From: an uncultured Erythrobacter sp.
GTDB taxonomy: Bacteria; Pseudomonadota; Alphaproteobacteria; Sphingomonadales; Sphingomonadaceae
NCBI GenBank assembly: GCA_913061345.1
Contig: CAJXTZ010000031.1
Span: forward strand, 1 to 26,722
Reading direction: 5' to 3'
DNA: 26,722 bases
Numbering within the stretch: position 1 is the first letter of the stretch; each line of letters starts with the position of its first letter. Both the position numbers and the translations under genes were made by a program. Positions 2,546 through 10,469 of the stretch are shown here, piece by piece. The notes beneath the pieces were generated by a model. That model did not search any database. It worked only from the letters and a program-made list of their open reading frames with translations, and had not been told where the DNA came from.

Positions 2546-3313
2546 ATGTCCGCCGACGCTCACACAGCTCTCGAAACCACCAATCTGGTCGCCCTGCGCC
2601 CGCTGAACGCGCCGCCATCCACCGGCCCTGCGCCATTGCTCACGCCACCAAAGCAGGCGGCGTTCTGCAAGGCGCTGGCCAATCATGGCAATGTGCGGCT
2701 CGCGTGCCGGGCGGTGCAGGTTTCGCCGCAGACGGCCTATCGCGCGCGGCGGGCCTCGCCTGCCTTTCGCCAGTGCTGGGATGCGGCGCTGGTGATCGCG
2801 CGGGACCATGCCGAGCAGGTGCTGGCCGACCGCGCTCTCAACGGGGTGGAGGAGACGGTGTTCTACCACGGGGAGGAGGTGGCCACGCGCAGGCGCTACG
2901 ATTCGCGGCTGCTGCTCGCCCACCTTGCACGGCTCGACAAGCGGGTCGAGGTGCAGGAGGCCTGTCGCCATTGCGGGGAGGACACACTGGGGGAGCATGA
3001 TTTCGACGACGCTCTCCACGCGCTGGAAAGCGGGGAAGGGGAGGGCGCGGTTTCCCTGTCAGGACTGTGTTCCATGTGTTCCACATTGGCCGCCGATCAG
3101 GTGGAGGAGGACGCCCCCTTGCCGGACCTTGCCCAGCGTCTGCGCGCGATGCACGCCGCTATGCCAGAGGACGCGCAGGCCAAGAGCGGGATGGACGATG
3201 CCGCCTGGCGCTCCAACGAGGCGGAGCGGCTGGTGGCCTTCGAAACGGGTCTGCCGGAATGGTGGTGCGCGGTAGAGGGGCCGTCCATCTGGGACCGTGA
3301 TGCAGGGGACTAG
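2546..3313 (+). CDS. Conserved hypothetical protein with N-terminal HTH-like segment
   Basis: A protein of 255 residues if it starts at ATG 2546, preceded by GAGG at a suitable distance. The frame opens further upstream (2444), but those residues look like non-coding translation. After a Pro-rich lead, residues from about 30 read [20 protein letters not shown] followed by [11 protein letters not shown], which looks like a helix-turn-helix of the type seen in small-terminase or transposase-like DNA-binding proteins. The middle is helical and charged; a CRHCGE and a later LCSMCS could be a metal-binding pair. The C-terminus is acidic with a WW pair. I recognise the type as recurrent in sphingomonads but know no function. 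Its stop overlaps the stop of the convergent rlpA gene through a shared CTAG at 3310-3313. Confidence 0.7.
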
Positions 3314-3888
3314 TCCTGCAGCAGTTCCAGCTCGACCCGGCCATGGCCCGAACGCACGATGCCCACGCGCTCTGCCGCTTCGCGCGACAGGTCTATGTGG
3401 CGGCCACGCACGAACGGTCCGCGATCGTTGATGCGCACCACGACAGATGCGCCGCTGCGCGGGTTCGTCACCCGTACGCGGCTGCCGAAGGGCAATGTCT
3501 TGTGCGCGGCGGTGAGCGCGTTCATGTCGAACCGCTCCCCATTGGCGGTGCGCCGACCGTGGAAGCGGCGTCCGTAATAGCTGGCAACGCCGGGGCCGAT
3601 GGGGGTGGCGCTGGGCTCTGCAGGTTCGATTGCAGTGATGTCCACCGCGTGATCGGGCAGGGCAGGCTCGATAGGCTCTGCAAAGCGGGCAAAGGCGTTC
3701 TCGAACTGCGCCGCTTCGCTGGGCTGGAAGGCGGGCTGGGGGGCCTGCGGTTCTGCCCGCAAGGCGCTGCTGTCGGCCGCGAATTGCGTATCCTGCGCCT
3801 GGCTGACGCCTGTCGCCCCAAGCAGCGCAAGCGCAGCGAGGGGGGTGATCCAGCGCAAGGTAGCGCGGGTGATGTTGTTCCCGTCCAT
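3310..3888 (-). CDS. rlpA: RlpA-family septal ring lytic transglycosylase-like protein (DPBB domain)
   Basis: A 192-residue exported protein. A cationic N-terminus with a hydrophobic run (residues 11-29) ending in VSQAQ is a signal peptide, without a lipobox Cys, so it is probably periplasmic and soluble rather than a lipoprotein. A Pro/Glu-rich linker covers about 40-98. The double-psi beta-barrel domain follows (about 99-190), with [40 protein letters not shown] and HIDLS, the RlpA hallmarks including the catalytic-type Asp in INDRGPF. There is no C-terminal SPOR domain, so septal targeting seen in larger RlpA proteins may be missing. RlpA cleaves peptide-stripped glycan strands in species where tested; activity here is by family. 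The start ATG at 3888 gives a good signal peptide. Confidence 0.9.
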
Positions 3889-4302
3889 AGGCAGCGGGGT
3901 TAGCCCAGGGGGGTTAAGAGAGCGAGTCTGGCGGGGGTCTGCAAACGCTTCACCGGGGCAGTCCGTCGCGAAATGAGGCGAAAATGCGACGAACCGTTTA
4001 TGGGGGGTGGGAACACGCGATGGTTAACGCAAAATGGGGTCGGTATCGCTACCGACCCCACTCTCACCGACGTGTGGATCACCCTTTGGGGTGATGCTTT
4101 ACGCCTTGCGAGTCTCCCTCGCGAACCTGAAAGGTTCAGCCAGGGATATGTCGCCGGCGCTCGCGCCGGTGCCGGATAGGTGCCCGGTCTTGCAAGGGGA
4201 TCCGAAGGACCGATCCTCGCGCGGTCTGGCGGTCTGTCCGCAGCCTTCGCCCTGGTTGGCATCTCAAGCGGTGCCGCGTGCAGCAAGCTGCGCGTGTCAC
4301 CA

Positions 4303-4361
4303 TCGATGCCGGTTCAAGGGTCCGGCCAACCGATGACAGTCGATGCGGTTTCAACGGTCCG
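4303..4361 (+). repeat. Imperfect direct repeat inside the structured region
   Basis: Two related segments, 4303-4325 and 4340-4361, share TCGATGC, a TTCAA core, and GGTCCG in the same order with a few substitutions and one small length change. The repeat unit is about 37 bases. It lies between the 4270-4301 hairpin and the 4361-4392 hairpin. Confidence 0.5.
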
Positions 4362-4545
4362 AGATGTCGTTACCCGAAGGTAGCGATGTCTCTTTCCTAC
4401 GCCGCGATCGTGCTTTCATCGCGTCGAGTGCGCTTCGGTTTCCGTTTTCCTGCCTCGTCGGGCGATGCAGGAAGCTGGTCCGTCTTCTCTCTCGATACAA
4501 GGATGGTGCGCCGACCGGGTCGAGTCGGGCAAGAGCGCAAAGGCC

Positions 4546-4594
4546 GACTTATCCACTTTGCAAAGAATCGCCGGTGGACAAGGGTGGATAAGTC
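4546..4594. repeat. 11-bp perfect inverted repeat carrying near-consensus DnaA boxes
   Basis: GACTTATCCAC (4546-4556) is repeated perfectly in reverse complement as GTGGATAAGTC (4584-4594), with a 27-base loop. Each arm holds a TTATCCAC core, eight of nine bases of the DnaA box TTATCCACA (4549-4557 forward, 4583-4591 reverse). A third, weaker box TTGTCCACC reads in reverse at 4573-4581. It could equally be a stem-loop ending argG or the candidate RNA; no T-run follows on either strand. It sits 25 bases beyond the argG stop. Confidence 0.5.
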
Positions 4595-4618
4595 AACATG
4601 TCGACGTTGCGTGTGAAA

Positions 4619-5839
4619 CTACCGCCTGCGATCGCGCGCTGCCAGGAGCCGCAAACGCAGGGCGTTCAGCTTGATGAAGCCTTCCGCGTCCTGCTGATCA
4701 TAGGCGCCTGCATCGTCCTCGAACGTCACATGCGCCTCGGAATAGAGCGAATTGGGGGACTTGCGGCCCACCAGATGCGCGCCGCCCTTGTACAGCATCA
4801 GGCGCACGGTTCCGTTCACCTTCTCCTGGCTGAGATCGATCGCGGCCTGCAGCATCTCGCGTTCCGGGCTGAACCAGAAGCCGTTGTAGATCAGCTCCGC
4901 ATAGCGCGGCATCAACTCGTCCTTGAGATGCGCGGCTCCGCGATCGAGCGTCACCTGCTCGATACCGCGATGGGCCACGGCGTAGATCGTGCCTCCGGGC
5001 GTCTCGTACATGCCGCGCGACTTCATGCCGACAAAGCGGTTCTCGACCAGATCGAGGCGCCCGATGCCGTGTTTGCGACCCAGTTCGTTCAAGGCGGTGA
5101 GCAGAGTGGCAGGACTCATCGCTTCGCCATTCAGCGATACGCCGTCGCCCTTGTCAAAGCCGATCTCGACATATTCAGGTTCGTCAGGCGCCTGCAACGG
5201 AGAAGCCGTGCGCGAGAAAACGTAATCCGGCGTTTCCTCCCACGGATCTTCCAGCACCTTGCCTTCGGACGAGGTGTGGAGCAGATTTGCGTCGGTGGAA
5301 AAGGGCGCTTCGCCGCGCTTATCCTTTGGTACGGCGATCTGATGCTCTTCGGCCCAGGCGATAAGGGCAGTGCGACTGGTAAGATCCCATTCGCGCCACG
5401 GGGCAATCACCTTGATATCGGGATCGAGAGCGTAGGCCGAGAGTTCGAACCGCACCTGGTCATTTCCCTTGCCGGTTGCGCCATGGGCTATGGCATCGGC
5501 GCCGGTTTCGTGGGCGATTTCGACGAGCCGCTTGGAAATCAGCGGACGGGCGATCGAAGTCCCCAGCAGGTAGTCGCCTTCGTAGCGGGCATTGGCGCGC
5601 ATCATCGGGAAGACGTAATCGCGCACGAATTCCTCGCGCACGTCTTCAATGTAGATGTGCTTGTCGGGAATGCCCATGGCGCGCGCTTTCTCGCGCGCAG
5701 GCTCGATCTCTTCGCCTTGTCCCAAATCGGCAGTAAAGGTGACGACTTCGAGCCCACGCTCGGTTTCCAGCCATTTTGCAATGACACTGGTATCCAGCCC
5801 GCCGGAATAGGCGAGGACGACGCGTTTGATTTCAGACAT
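4619..5839 (-). CDS. argG: Argininosuccinate synthase
   Basis: A full-length 406-residue argininosuccinate synthase, the cytosolic ATP-dependent enzyme that joins citrulline and aspartate in arginine biosynthesis. The nucleotide-binding motif AYSGGLDTS is at residues 10-18. Further family blocks are [55 protein letters not shown] and [19 protein letters not shown]. Length and order fit the family. The start ATG at 5839 is two residues before the conserved core strand; no strong Shine-Dalgarno is visible. It lies 63 bases downstream of the MATE/CFA operon on the same strand, so read-through is possible. The large antisense frame across this gene is a shadow. Confidence 0.97.
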
Positions 5840-7802: not shown

Positions 7803-9050
7803 TTATCGGGCGAGGAGCTTGCGCTCAGCCTCTTCGATATAGTCGCGCGTCAGCGGCAGGGCGTAGCGGTTGCGGCTGTATTGTACCTGGAAATTGCAAA
7901 GCCCGCCCCATTCGAAGGTGGAGGCCGCGCCTGCTAGGTAGAAGGTCCACATGCGGAAGAAGCGTTCGTCGAACATGGCGATAATCGCATCGCGATGCTT
8001 CACGCAGCGAGCATACCATTCGCGCAGCGTCTTCGCGTAATGCACGCGCAGCACCTCGACATCGGTGGCCATCAGTCGCACTTTCTGGCTGGGCTCCATC
8101 ATCTGGCTGAGCGCGGGGATATAGCCGCCGGGAAAGATGTATTTGCGGGTAAATGTGTCTGCTGCCACAGGGCTGCCGAAACGGCCAATAGTATGCAGCA
8201 GCATCACGCCATCGTCCGAAAGCATGCGCGCGCAATCGCGAAAGAAGGTCTCGTACTGCGGCACGCCGACATGTTCGAACATACCGACCGACACGATGCG
8301 ATCGAAAATCTCGCCTCGCGCCGCGAGGTCGCGGTAGTCGACCAGTTCGAACGTAACCTTGTCGGATACGCCAGCCGCCTCGGCTCGCTCTTGCGCGAGG
8401 GCGAGTTGCTCTACGCTGAGCGTTATTCCGGTGACTTTTACGCCCGCCCGACTTGCGAGAAAAATCGCCATGCCGCCCCAGCCACAACCGATATCAAGAA
8501 CATGATCGCCCGGCTTGAGCATCAGCTTGGCGGCGATATGAGCTAGCTTTGCTTCCTGTGCTTCCCCCAGTGTCATGCCATCCCGCGGCCAGTAACCGCA
8601 GGAATACTGCATGTGTTCCTCGTCCAGCATCAGATTGTAGAGATCGTTGCCGATATCGTAATGATGCGCGACGTTATCCCTCGATGTGAAGGGGTTGTTG
8701 AAACTGTCCTTGATAAAGGCGAGCCGTTTAAGCGCGCGTCGATGCGGCGCCAGTTGTCCGAAACTGCCTTTTGTTTCCCACGGCCGGTTGCGACGCACCA
8801 GCTCTATCAGCTCCATGATCCCGCCGCGCTCTATGATGATGCGGCCATCCATGAAGGCCTCACCTACGCCCAGCTTCGTGTCGAGCGCGATATCGCGGAT
8901 CACTTTGCTGTCGGTCAGCCGAATAGCGACATCCGGATAGTCGGGATGCGGCTGGCCGTAGGTGGCGCTACGACCATCATGCTTCGTAAGCTTCAGAGTT
9001 CCGTGCTCGATTGCGTTGCCGATCAGCCGGTCGATCAAAGTGGTGCTCAT
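7803..9050 (-). CDS. cfa: Cyclopropane-fatty-acyl-phospholipid synthase
   Basis: A 415-residue SAM-dependent enzyme that adds a methylene bridge to unsaturated acyl chains of membrane phospholipids. An N-terminal lipid-binding-type region (about 1-110) precedes the methyltransferase domain with VLDIGCGWGG at 184-193. Active-site elements of the family are present: HHYDIGNDLY (129-138), YSCGYW (149-154, holding the counterpart of E. coli Cys139), GMFEHVG, LLHTIGRFG, RKYIFPGGYIPALS and RVHYAKTLREW. All bicarbonate-site residues I know of seem kept. GGAGG lies 6 bases before ATG 9050. It is second in an operon: 15 bases after the paralogue stop and 2 bases before the MATE start. Confidence 0.93.
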   Translation of the reverse strand: MSTTLIDRLIGNAIEHGTLKLTKHDGRSATYGQPHPDYPDVAIRLTDSKVIRDIALDTKLGVGEAFMDGRIIIERGGIMELIELVRRNRPWETKGSFGQLAPHRRALKRLAFIKDSFNNPFTSRDNVAHHYDIGNDLYNLMLDEEHMQYSCGYWPRDGMTLGEAQEAKLAHIAAKLMLKPGDHVLDIGCGWGGMAIFLASRAGVKVTGITLSVEQLALAQERAEAAGVSDKVTFELVDYRDLAARGEIFDRIVSVGMFEHVGVPQYETFFRDCARMLSDDGVMLLHTIGRFGSPVAADTFTRKYIFPGGYIPALSQMMEPSQKVRLMATDVEVLRVHYAKTLREWYARCVKHRDAIIAMFDERFFRMWTFYLAGAASTFEWGGLCNFQVQYSRNRYALPLTRDYIEEAERKLLAR

Positions 9051-9065
9051 GTTGCCTCCGCCTGC

Positions 9066-10379
9066 TTACTCCGCCGCCTGTTCCAGCGCCGGATCAAGAT
9101 GCCATTGTGGCGGTTCTTCCAGACCGCGCAGGCGTTCGCTTTCCTCGTACACGAAATCGCCCGTCATCGGGATGGCCTCGCGATCCTTCACGTAGATCAT
9201 CTGCCAGTTCACTAGTGTACCGTGGCGGAAACTCTGTTCCGCGCCCGCAAGGTAGAACTGCCACATGCGGAAAAACTCCTCGTCGTACAGGTCCACCAGT
9301 TCTCGCTCGTGCATTGTGGTGCGGTTGTACCATTCCTCCAGCGTGTGGCTGTAGTGGAAGCGCATGGCTTCCACGTCCATCACCTGCCAGCCGGCCTTCT
9401 CACTCTCTGTCACAAGTTCCGACAGGGCAGGAATGTAGCCTCCGGGAAAGATGTACTTGCGCGTCCATGCATCAGTGAAGCCGGGTGGGCCCGCGCGGCC
9501 GCAACAGTGGCTGAACATCACGCCCTTGGGCGCCAGCAACTCGTGCGTTTTCTTCATGAACTGCGGATAGTGCGGGGTGCCGACATGCTCCAGCAGGCCG
9601 ACGGAACTGATCCGGTCGAACGTGCCTTCAACGTCGCGGTAATCCATCAGCGCAAACTTCACCTTGTCGGAGACGCCGGCCTCTTTTGCGCGCTCCTTGC
9701 AGAAGGCGATCTGGTCCGGTGCAAGCGCAACGCCCAGCACTTCGGCGCCATAATGCTTGTTGAGATAGAGTGCGAGACCGCCCCAGCCGCAACCGATATC
9801 CAGCACCCGCAAGGGGCGATCCATCTCGCGGGCCTGCTGCATGTACATCTTGGCGGCAATGTGCGCTTTCTTGTCGAGCTGCGCCTTCTCCAGGCTGTTC
9901 GACGTGTCGCGGTAATAGCCCATGGTGTACTGGCGATCCTCGTCGAGGAACAGTTCGTACAATTGCCGCGTCAGATTGTATGTATGCTCCGCGTTCTTGC
10001 GCGCCTTGCTTTTTAGATTAACGCTATCGATCTTCGCCGCAGTCTTCTGTGCCAGCCGCTTTAGCGGGCCTTGCGGTTGCAGGGCCTTGTCGCCGTGTAC
10101 CTTGGCTTGCCCGGTAACATACAGCACCATGTCGCGTATATCGTGCGGCTCTTCCACGATCAGCCAGCCCCACATGTAGGCCTCTCCCGCCCCGACCTGC
10201 GGATAGCGGGCGATGTGGCTGGAGGCCTTCTTGTTGGTAAGGCGCACTCTGATCGGTTCGCCGTATTCGCCGTTCACATCCCCGCCGGGACCGTATTCGT
10301 AAACCTTGCCGTCGTAATCGGTGATCACCAGCTTGCCAGCACGGATCAGTTTCGTCAGCATCTTGTCGAGCAGCCACAT
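9066..10379 (-). CDS. CFA-family SAM-dependent methyltransferase, divergent paralogue
   Basis: A 437-residue relative of the next gene. The SAM motif VLDIGCGWGG (192-201), GLLEHVG, RKYIFPGGYIPALSEL, MRFHYSHTLEEWYNR and FFRMWQFYLAGAE are all conserved. Two active-site regions differ: HHYDIGND is replaced by EHTYNLTRQ, and YSCxYW by YTMGYY, so the Cys139 counterpart is Met; HTIG becomes HCCG. It may therefore do a different methyl transfer on fatty acyl chains, or be a slower CFA synthase; both are inference. The start is taken as ATG 10379, with GGGGA about 11 bases upstream; the frame could begin at GTG 10397. It is first in the operon cfa-paralogue, cfa, MATE, LRAT-like. The C-terminus has an extra tail beyond the family end. 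Confidence 0.9.
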   Translation of the reverse strand: MWLLDKMLTKLIRAGKLVITDYDGKVYEYGPGGDVNGEYGEPIRVRLTNKKASSHIARYPQVGAGEAYMWGWLIVEEPHDIRDMVLYVTGQAKVHGDKALQPQGPLKRLAQKTAAKIDSVNLKSKARKNAEHTYNLTRQLYELFLDEDRQYTMGYYRDTSNSLEKAQLDKKAHIAAKMYMQQAREMDRPLRVLDIGCGWGGLALYLNKHYGAEVLGVALAPDQIAFCKERAKEAGVSDKVKFALMDYRDVEGTFDRISSVGLLEHVGTPHYPQFMKKTHELLAPKGVMFSHCCGRAGPPGFTDAWTRKYIFPGGYIPALSELVTESEKAGWQVMDVEAMRFHYSHTLEEWYNRTTMHERELVDLYDEEFFRMWQFYLAGAEQSFRHGTLVNWQMIYVKDREAIPMTGDFVYEESERLRGLEEPPQWHLDPALEQAAE

Positions 10380-10469
10380 AGGCGTGAAGTTCCCCACATT
10401 GCGTTTGAGATTGGCGCAGGTTTGCGAGCCGTTTGGCGGCCTGTCAATTGTGCGCTAGCATCGCTCCCC

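Follow-up and report, generated by a model that had tools for sequence, protein, structure and literature searches.

A structured RNA of no listed family between argG and rlpA in Erythrobacteraceae, with a putative cell-cycle-type promoter

The cell-cycle non-coding RNAs that emerge from the literature searched are CcnA, EcpR1 (PMC4414408) and the entries of a bioinformatic list for Caulobacter (PMC5988900). CcnA is characterized, in the excerpt consulted, as a Caulobacter cell-cycle ncRNA encoded at the replication origin and presumably activated by CtrA (PMC8959179). Protein genes of the same organism offer a second point of comparison: passages of a study of Caulobacter start sites give ctrA P1 a GANTC at -28/-29, podJ P2 a GANTC at -24 and a DnaA motif at -82, and mipZ P2 DnaA motifs at -52 and -83 (PMC4287350). 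Start sites with a GANTC between -10 and -35 are activated at 40–60 min according to the same passages, and only 31% of GcrA-bound cell-cycle start sites have a GANTC within 50 bp, so that a GANTC by itself is no proof of GcrA control (PMC4287350). A third comparison is with the DARS sites of E. coli, the core of which is described in excerpted text as one DnaA box facing two others (PMC5742627, PMC8682772).

The element described here, which lies between argG and rlpA in an uncultured Erythrobacter sp., has something in common with each of these. Going by published description, it resembles CcnA as an alphaproteobacterial ncRNA with what looks like a cell-cycle-type promoter; it differs from CcnA, which sits at the origin and presumably answers to CtrA, in lying off the origin behind DnaA-like and GANTC sites. 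With mipZ P2, podJ P2 and ctrA P1, as these are described in the passages cited, it shares a GANTC within the -10/-35 interval and DnaA-like motifs near -52 and -82, but those promoters drive protein genes, whereas the promoter of the element would drive an RNA, from a three-box array of fixed geometry. Literature searches, judged by the titles and abstract openings of the top-ranked items, turned up no paper on the argG-rlpA RNA. The RNA is long, structured, absent from Rfam and carried by roughly one in three of the genomes sampled from one family, and if it does stand behind a DnaA-like and GANTC promoter, it would add a new input or output to the cell-cycle circuit of Alphaproteobacteria.

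In the window (the whole stretch of 26,722 nucleotides that was analysed), argG occupies 4619–5839 (minus strand; NF001770, 613 bits) and rlpA, of the septal ring lytic transglycosylase family, 3310–3888 (minus strand; TIGR00413, 146.5 bits against a cut-off of 82.15). A preliminary description of this DNA had seen no credible gene at 4036–4594, between the two, and had proposed instead a large structured RNA of unknown family, on the plus strand. The absence of a gene was borne out, and a coding stretch is further rejected by the gap runs in alignments of eight RNA pairs, 38 of 46 of which are not multiples of three. The borders, too, fit the conserved element, as the BLAST alignment to the nearest relative spans 4032–4597. 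The 591-nt stretch is more structured than chance on both strands, with z values of -6.93 (plus) and -6.05 (minus) and 0 of 100 shuffles as stable on either one. There is good support for a structured RNA that belongs to no listed family: it is conserved, it covaries and it occurs at one site per genome. We place the RNA gene, of ~467 nt (~470), on the minus strand at 4030–4496; both ends are predicted, the span from promoter to terminal hairpin being kept in 88 relatives, with +1 at 4496, the A of AUCGAGAG, and a 3' end near 4030.

An Rfam search and an examination of stem conservation and covariation in relatives, both proposed in the preliminary description, also favour a family of its own. 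Rfam 15 gave 0 matches over the whole window at gathering cut-offs, and the four matches seen at a loose threshold scored 17–22 bits against cut-offs of 44–70. RNase P RNA and tmRNA, which the preliminary description had likewise set aside, are excluded: RF00010 is found elsewhere in 7 of 7 carriers (273–297 bits), and ARAGORN, which looks for a tRNA-like domain plus a tag, finds no tmRNA in the window. What the argG-rlpA RNA shares with these and other Rfam families is its size range only. The terminal stem does covary, as detailed below.

Of 298 genomes sampled from the family of Alteraurantiacibacter aestuarii, a species placed by NCBI in Erythrobacteraceae, Sphingomonadales, 94 match the RNA stretch by BLAST (E of 0.001 or better) and 98 match a covariance model with a score of at least 46 bits; roughly two in three of the genomes show no strong match. 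The model cut was set at 46 bits because second matches of 31–42 bits appear in family genomes that already have a strong one, so that the E-values of the model are too kind. When compared by BLAST with loci gathered via RlpA, the whole stretch is matched in one MAG (72% over 590 nt), and a 5' part plus a 3' part in Alteraurantiacibacter aestuarii and in Altererythrobacter segetis (L001, L002 and L033, respectively). Six of the 94 BLAST-positive genomes, with short inner pieces only, were left unaligned (G011, G053, G088, G264, G073 and G205), of which G011 and G073 later scored 57–58 bits with the model. In 87 of the remaining 88, motifs mark the two ends of the element, while the last (L123, from genome G138) ran off its contig; these 87, G001 and the window make up the working set of 89 sequences.

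Beyond the family, a class-wide search gave a model match in 35 of 385 genomes. Four of these exceed 60 bits, all already among the family genomes, and the other 31, at ~27–40 bits, were taken as a group to be presumed chance matches. The known spread is that of genomes of one family, two named species and one MAG. Phage and plasmid records searched for the element gave no match, and horizontal carriage was rejected on that basis. In 30 genomes without a strong BLAST match, the DNA downstream of argG was inspected for the DnaA-box-like triad and GANTC discussed below: L307, L308 and L315 hold a diverged triad with GANTC, and the first two match the model as well; L311 has a box score of 16/22 and a GANTC, with rlpA close behind; in the other 26, nothing clear is seen downstream of argG. 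The diverged copies suggest that the family may be older than sequence searches indicate.

The best-conserved feature of the element is a terminator-like terminal hairpin at 4036–4059 (minus strand), capped in the window by a GCGA loop of the GNRA type. When read on the minus strand, 879 of 880 cells of its stem pair across 80 distinct rows, with double changes in 7 of 11 pairs (42 cells, against a shuffled mean of 4.8), a signal that is destroyed when the partner is slid. At one position, 71 of the 80 rows have a U.G, which on the plus strand would be a C.A mismatch. The loop is GNRA or UNCG on the minus strand in 87 of 89 sequences (GCAA 53, GCGA 24, UCCG 3, GGAA 2, UUCG 2, GAAA 2, GAGA 1, others 2), and the hairpin is followed at 4029–4035 by a short U-tract, AUUUUGC, in a region that has 4 to 9 T per 12 nt in all 61 sequences examined.

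Further hairpins lie inside the element. One at 4154–4169 (CCGGCG-CGAG-CGCCGG, minus strand) keeps at least 5 of its 6 pairs in 86 of 89 sequences, its fifth pair being C-G in 56, U-G in 24, U-A in 4 and otherwise in 2, and the window has a UUCG-capped hairpin, UACC-UUCG-GGUA, at 4371–4382, placed on the minus strand by the bias of UNCG loops. Outside the terminal stem, the 89 sequences hold 97 UNCG hairpins on the minus strand and 4 on the plus, where whole-sequence shuffles give 3.8 and 8.4; GNRA hairpins are mildly raised, at 80 and 24 against 60.6 and 35.4. If hairpins are chosen by Watson-Crick pairs alone, a strand-neutral choice that leaves 132 of them outside the terminal stem, 31 carry special tetraloops on the minus strand and 3 on the plus. 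Given the covariation and pair counts, the tetraloops, the U-tract and the promoter letters, we regard it as almost certain that, for the family, the minus strand is the RNA strand.

Upstream of the predicted start, the window has a -35 element, TTGCCC, at 4527–4532 and a -10 element, CACCAT, at 4503–4508 (both minus strand, by fit to consensus). In all 70 sequences that hold TTGnnnGANTC, a CAnnnT follows the TTGnnn with a spacer of 17 (69 sequences) or 18 (one, which by our reading is the window), and we take these letters to fit the -35 and -10 of a sigma-70 promoter. Within the spacer, at 4522–4526 (minus strand), lies GACTC, by motif a CcrM methylation and GcrA site. A GANTC is present no more than 45 nt downstream of the nearest box-like site (c, below) in 83 of 89 sequences (GACTC 63, GAATC 14, GATTC 6); 62 share an identical position and 71 come within a base of it, and the background elsewhere in the element is 0.015 per 45 nt. 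It falls at -26 to -30 from the predicted start, and 81 of the 83 sites fit, on one strand, YGAKTCK, given in an excerpted source as the extended GcrA motif (PMC7987155). A GANTC so placed between -10 and -35, in its extended form, is what one would look for in a GcrA/CcrM-dependent promoter, and this one may well be such. The GcrA gene (PF07750) is present in all 16 genomes tested, which include both carriers and non-carriers of the element. The window has a second GANTC (GATTC) at 4565–4569, between box-like sites b and c.

DnaA boxes have the consensus TTWTCCAC, with A as the ninth base in the textbook form. Some 50–95 nt upstream of the predicted start lie three sites resembling them: c (TTATCCACT) at 4549–4557 on the plus strand, b (TTGTCCACC) at 4573–4581 on the minus strand and a (TTATCCACC) at 4583–4591, also minus, centred at about -57, -81 and -91, respectively. 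In the minus sense, the triad reads (G/C)TTWTCCAC, then a TGTCCAC-like site, then GTGGAWAA. Its spacing is identical in 86 of 88 relatives; b and c are 15 nt apart except in L171 (14) and L162 (16). We rejected the alternative that the triad is an RNA stem, since its third base is A-A in 14 rows and T-T in 7, and the first base beyond the stem pairs in 48 of 89 only; the letters vary independently, as in DNA sites, with no RNA-pair covariation. Upstream sites that fit TTWTCCAC and vary as DNA are what a DnaA-regulated promoter should have, and the element would qualify. The weak point of this promoter reading is the ninth base: of 89 sequences, 5 have A there at site a, 42 at b and 8 at c. The DnaA motifs reported for Caulobacter, in the passages cited, are CTCCACA, ATCCACA and GTCCACA (PMC4287350).

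Searched as a DNA pattern that tolerates up to two mismatches, the triad turns up in 93 of 298 genomes, against 0 for a reversed-pattern control, and at one place per genome, aside from reverse readings of the same near-palindrome. In 93 of 93 cases, it is on the contig of the model match and 421–657 nt from it. The matches so paired score at least 46 bits in 91, and 38–40 bits in G064 and G114. Conversely, 7 of the 98 genomes at 46 bits or more have no triad pattern (G011, G073, G091, G096, G138, G216 and G257), and in G216 the match is on a contig other than that of argG.

From the conserved element of ~470 nt, its strand, its covarying hairpin, its tetraloops, the sigma-70-type promoter signature, the GANTC and the geometry of the triad, all of which can be read directly from the DNA, we infer transcription, regulation and function. 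The probable explanation, in our judgment, is a stand-alone minus-strand ncRNA gene timed by DnaA and by GcrA/CcrM. DnaA bound at the triad would stimulate the promoter, and GcrA together with sigma-70 would activate it once CcrM had methylated the GANTC. Transcription would come in pulses, as the locus changes from full methylation to hemimethylation once the replication fork has gone by; the RNA would fold, the transcript would stop at the terminal hairpin, and during S phase or division the product would act in trans, either by base pairing or by binding protein. Such a geometry predicts methylation-gated bursts, DnaA binding at three sites and one start near 4496. For one conserved 11-mer, 3 of 12 genomes have no antisense site beyond the RNA gene itself and the other 9 have extra ones, which means that this 11-mer has no target common to all 12. 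We can also picture, though with low probability, a replication-clock locus in which a single DARS-like DnaA complex is fused to a methylation-gated GcrA/CcrM promoter and a structured 470-nt RNA is made once per cycle, with the passage of the fork; it would read both DnaA and methylation state and act in trans on replication or division.

A different account would make the RNA the leader of rlpA: the cell-cycle promoter would serve rlpA through a structured 5' UTR of 470 nt, in which the terminal hairpin would attenuate transcription, and so put a septal peptidoglycan enzyme under cell-cycle control. The order of genes allows this, as argG, RNA and rlpA lie on one strand at 59 of 61 loci (the remaining two being without one neighbour in the stretch examined) and rlpA is downstream on the RNA's own strand at 60 of 61; the family name of rlpA is indeed that of a septal ring transglycosylase, and the U-tract is short enough to make read-through plausible. 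However, the interval separating the hairpin from the first in-frame rlpA ATG ranges from 33 to 864 nt (median 211; 57 sequences, start codons as predicted), conservation with the nearest relative ends at 4032, ahead of the gap to rlpA, and in 6 of the 30 genomes without a strong BLAST match rlpA follows argG with no clear triad between. The variable gap, the end of conservation at the hairpin and the genomes with rlpA after argG speak for an RNA gene separate from its neighbours, and we consider the leader unlikely.

Alternatively, the triad could be a DARS-like or datA-like DNA site that regulates DnaA, the RNA being a by-product or else a device for opening and closing the site. The triad has the box order and orientation of the E. 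coli DARS1 and DARS2 cores as these are described, with box I opposite to II and III, and, like them, fixed spacing; it is one site per genome, and a review describes, in the passage cited, DARS1- and DARS2-like sequences as conserved across many proteobacteria (PMC10380432). Yet by our reading of the K-12 sequence, the gaps in both DARS1 and DARS2 are 5 and 3 nt, against 15 and 1 nt here, so that the triad fails as a DARS by the test of spacing; it is, moreover, joined to a promoter and an RNA, and is never found away from that RNA (93 of 93). The triad may still work like DARS in some respect, but as the explanation of the locus we think a DnaA-regulating site unlikely, and prefer the timed ncRNA gene.

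The plus-strand RNA of the preliminary description fares worse. Its argument was a bias of wobble pairs, and within the window the bias holds, with 6 G.T against 0 A.C outside the 4036–4059 stem by our hairpin finder; the family reading of that stem on the plus strand, at 179 A.C against 1 G.T, goes the other way. This opposite bias was invisible in the window because there the telling U.G position is a U-A pair (1 of 80 rows). The plus strand has the better z over the 591-nt stretch, and a folding z favours the RNA strand in 5 of 8 sequences only, with the window contrary at -5.15 for the RNA strand and -5.58 for the opposite one. A mild plus-strand bias is also present in the inner hairpins of the family (4060–4500, without the terminal hairpin), 75 G.T against 41 A.C where shuffled whole sequences give 84 against 87, and the minus reading provides no explanation for it; the family rows are related, such that these counts stand for fewer events than they suggest. 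With the conserved stem, the tetraloops, the promoter and the U-tract all on the minus strand, a plus-strand RNA is very hard to credit, and the region ~4547–4594, formerly taken as the 3' part of that RNA, is better seen as promoter-upstream DNA with box sites.

A chromosomal replication origin, which the three DnaA-box-like sites might bring to mind, is to all intents ruled out, as GGGNAGGG polarity switches away from the element in both relatives sampled (two genomes at 20 places each, the main contig being about the whole genome, with small counts and noisy GC skew). In G081 the switches fall near 1.1 Mb and between ~2.3 and 2.6 Mb, with the element at 1.515 Mb; in G292 they fall near 1.0 Mb and somewhere in 2.2–3.2 Mb, with the element at 1.326 Mb. 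By the same polarity in these two relatives, the element does not share the origin location of CcnA.

Two other regions of the window drew attention, both on the minus strand. At 7803–10397 are two tandem cyclopropane fatty acid synthase-like genes, each under its model cut-off. At 485–2387, beside the end of uvrA, is a gene pair of lower GC (~0.51, against ~0.60 around it), encoding the three-Cys-motif partner protein TcmP and a protein that matches radical SAM mobile pair protein A below the cut-off; the pair may be a mobile insertion.
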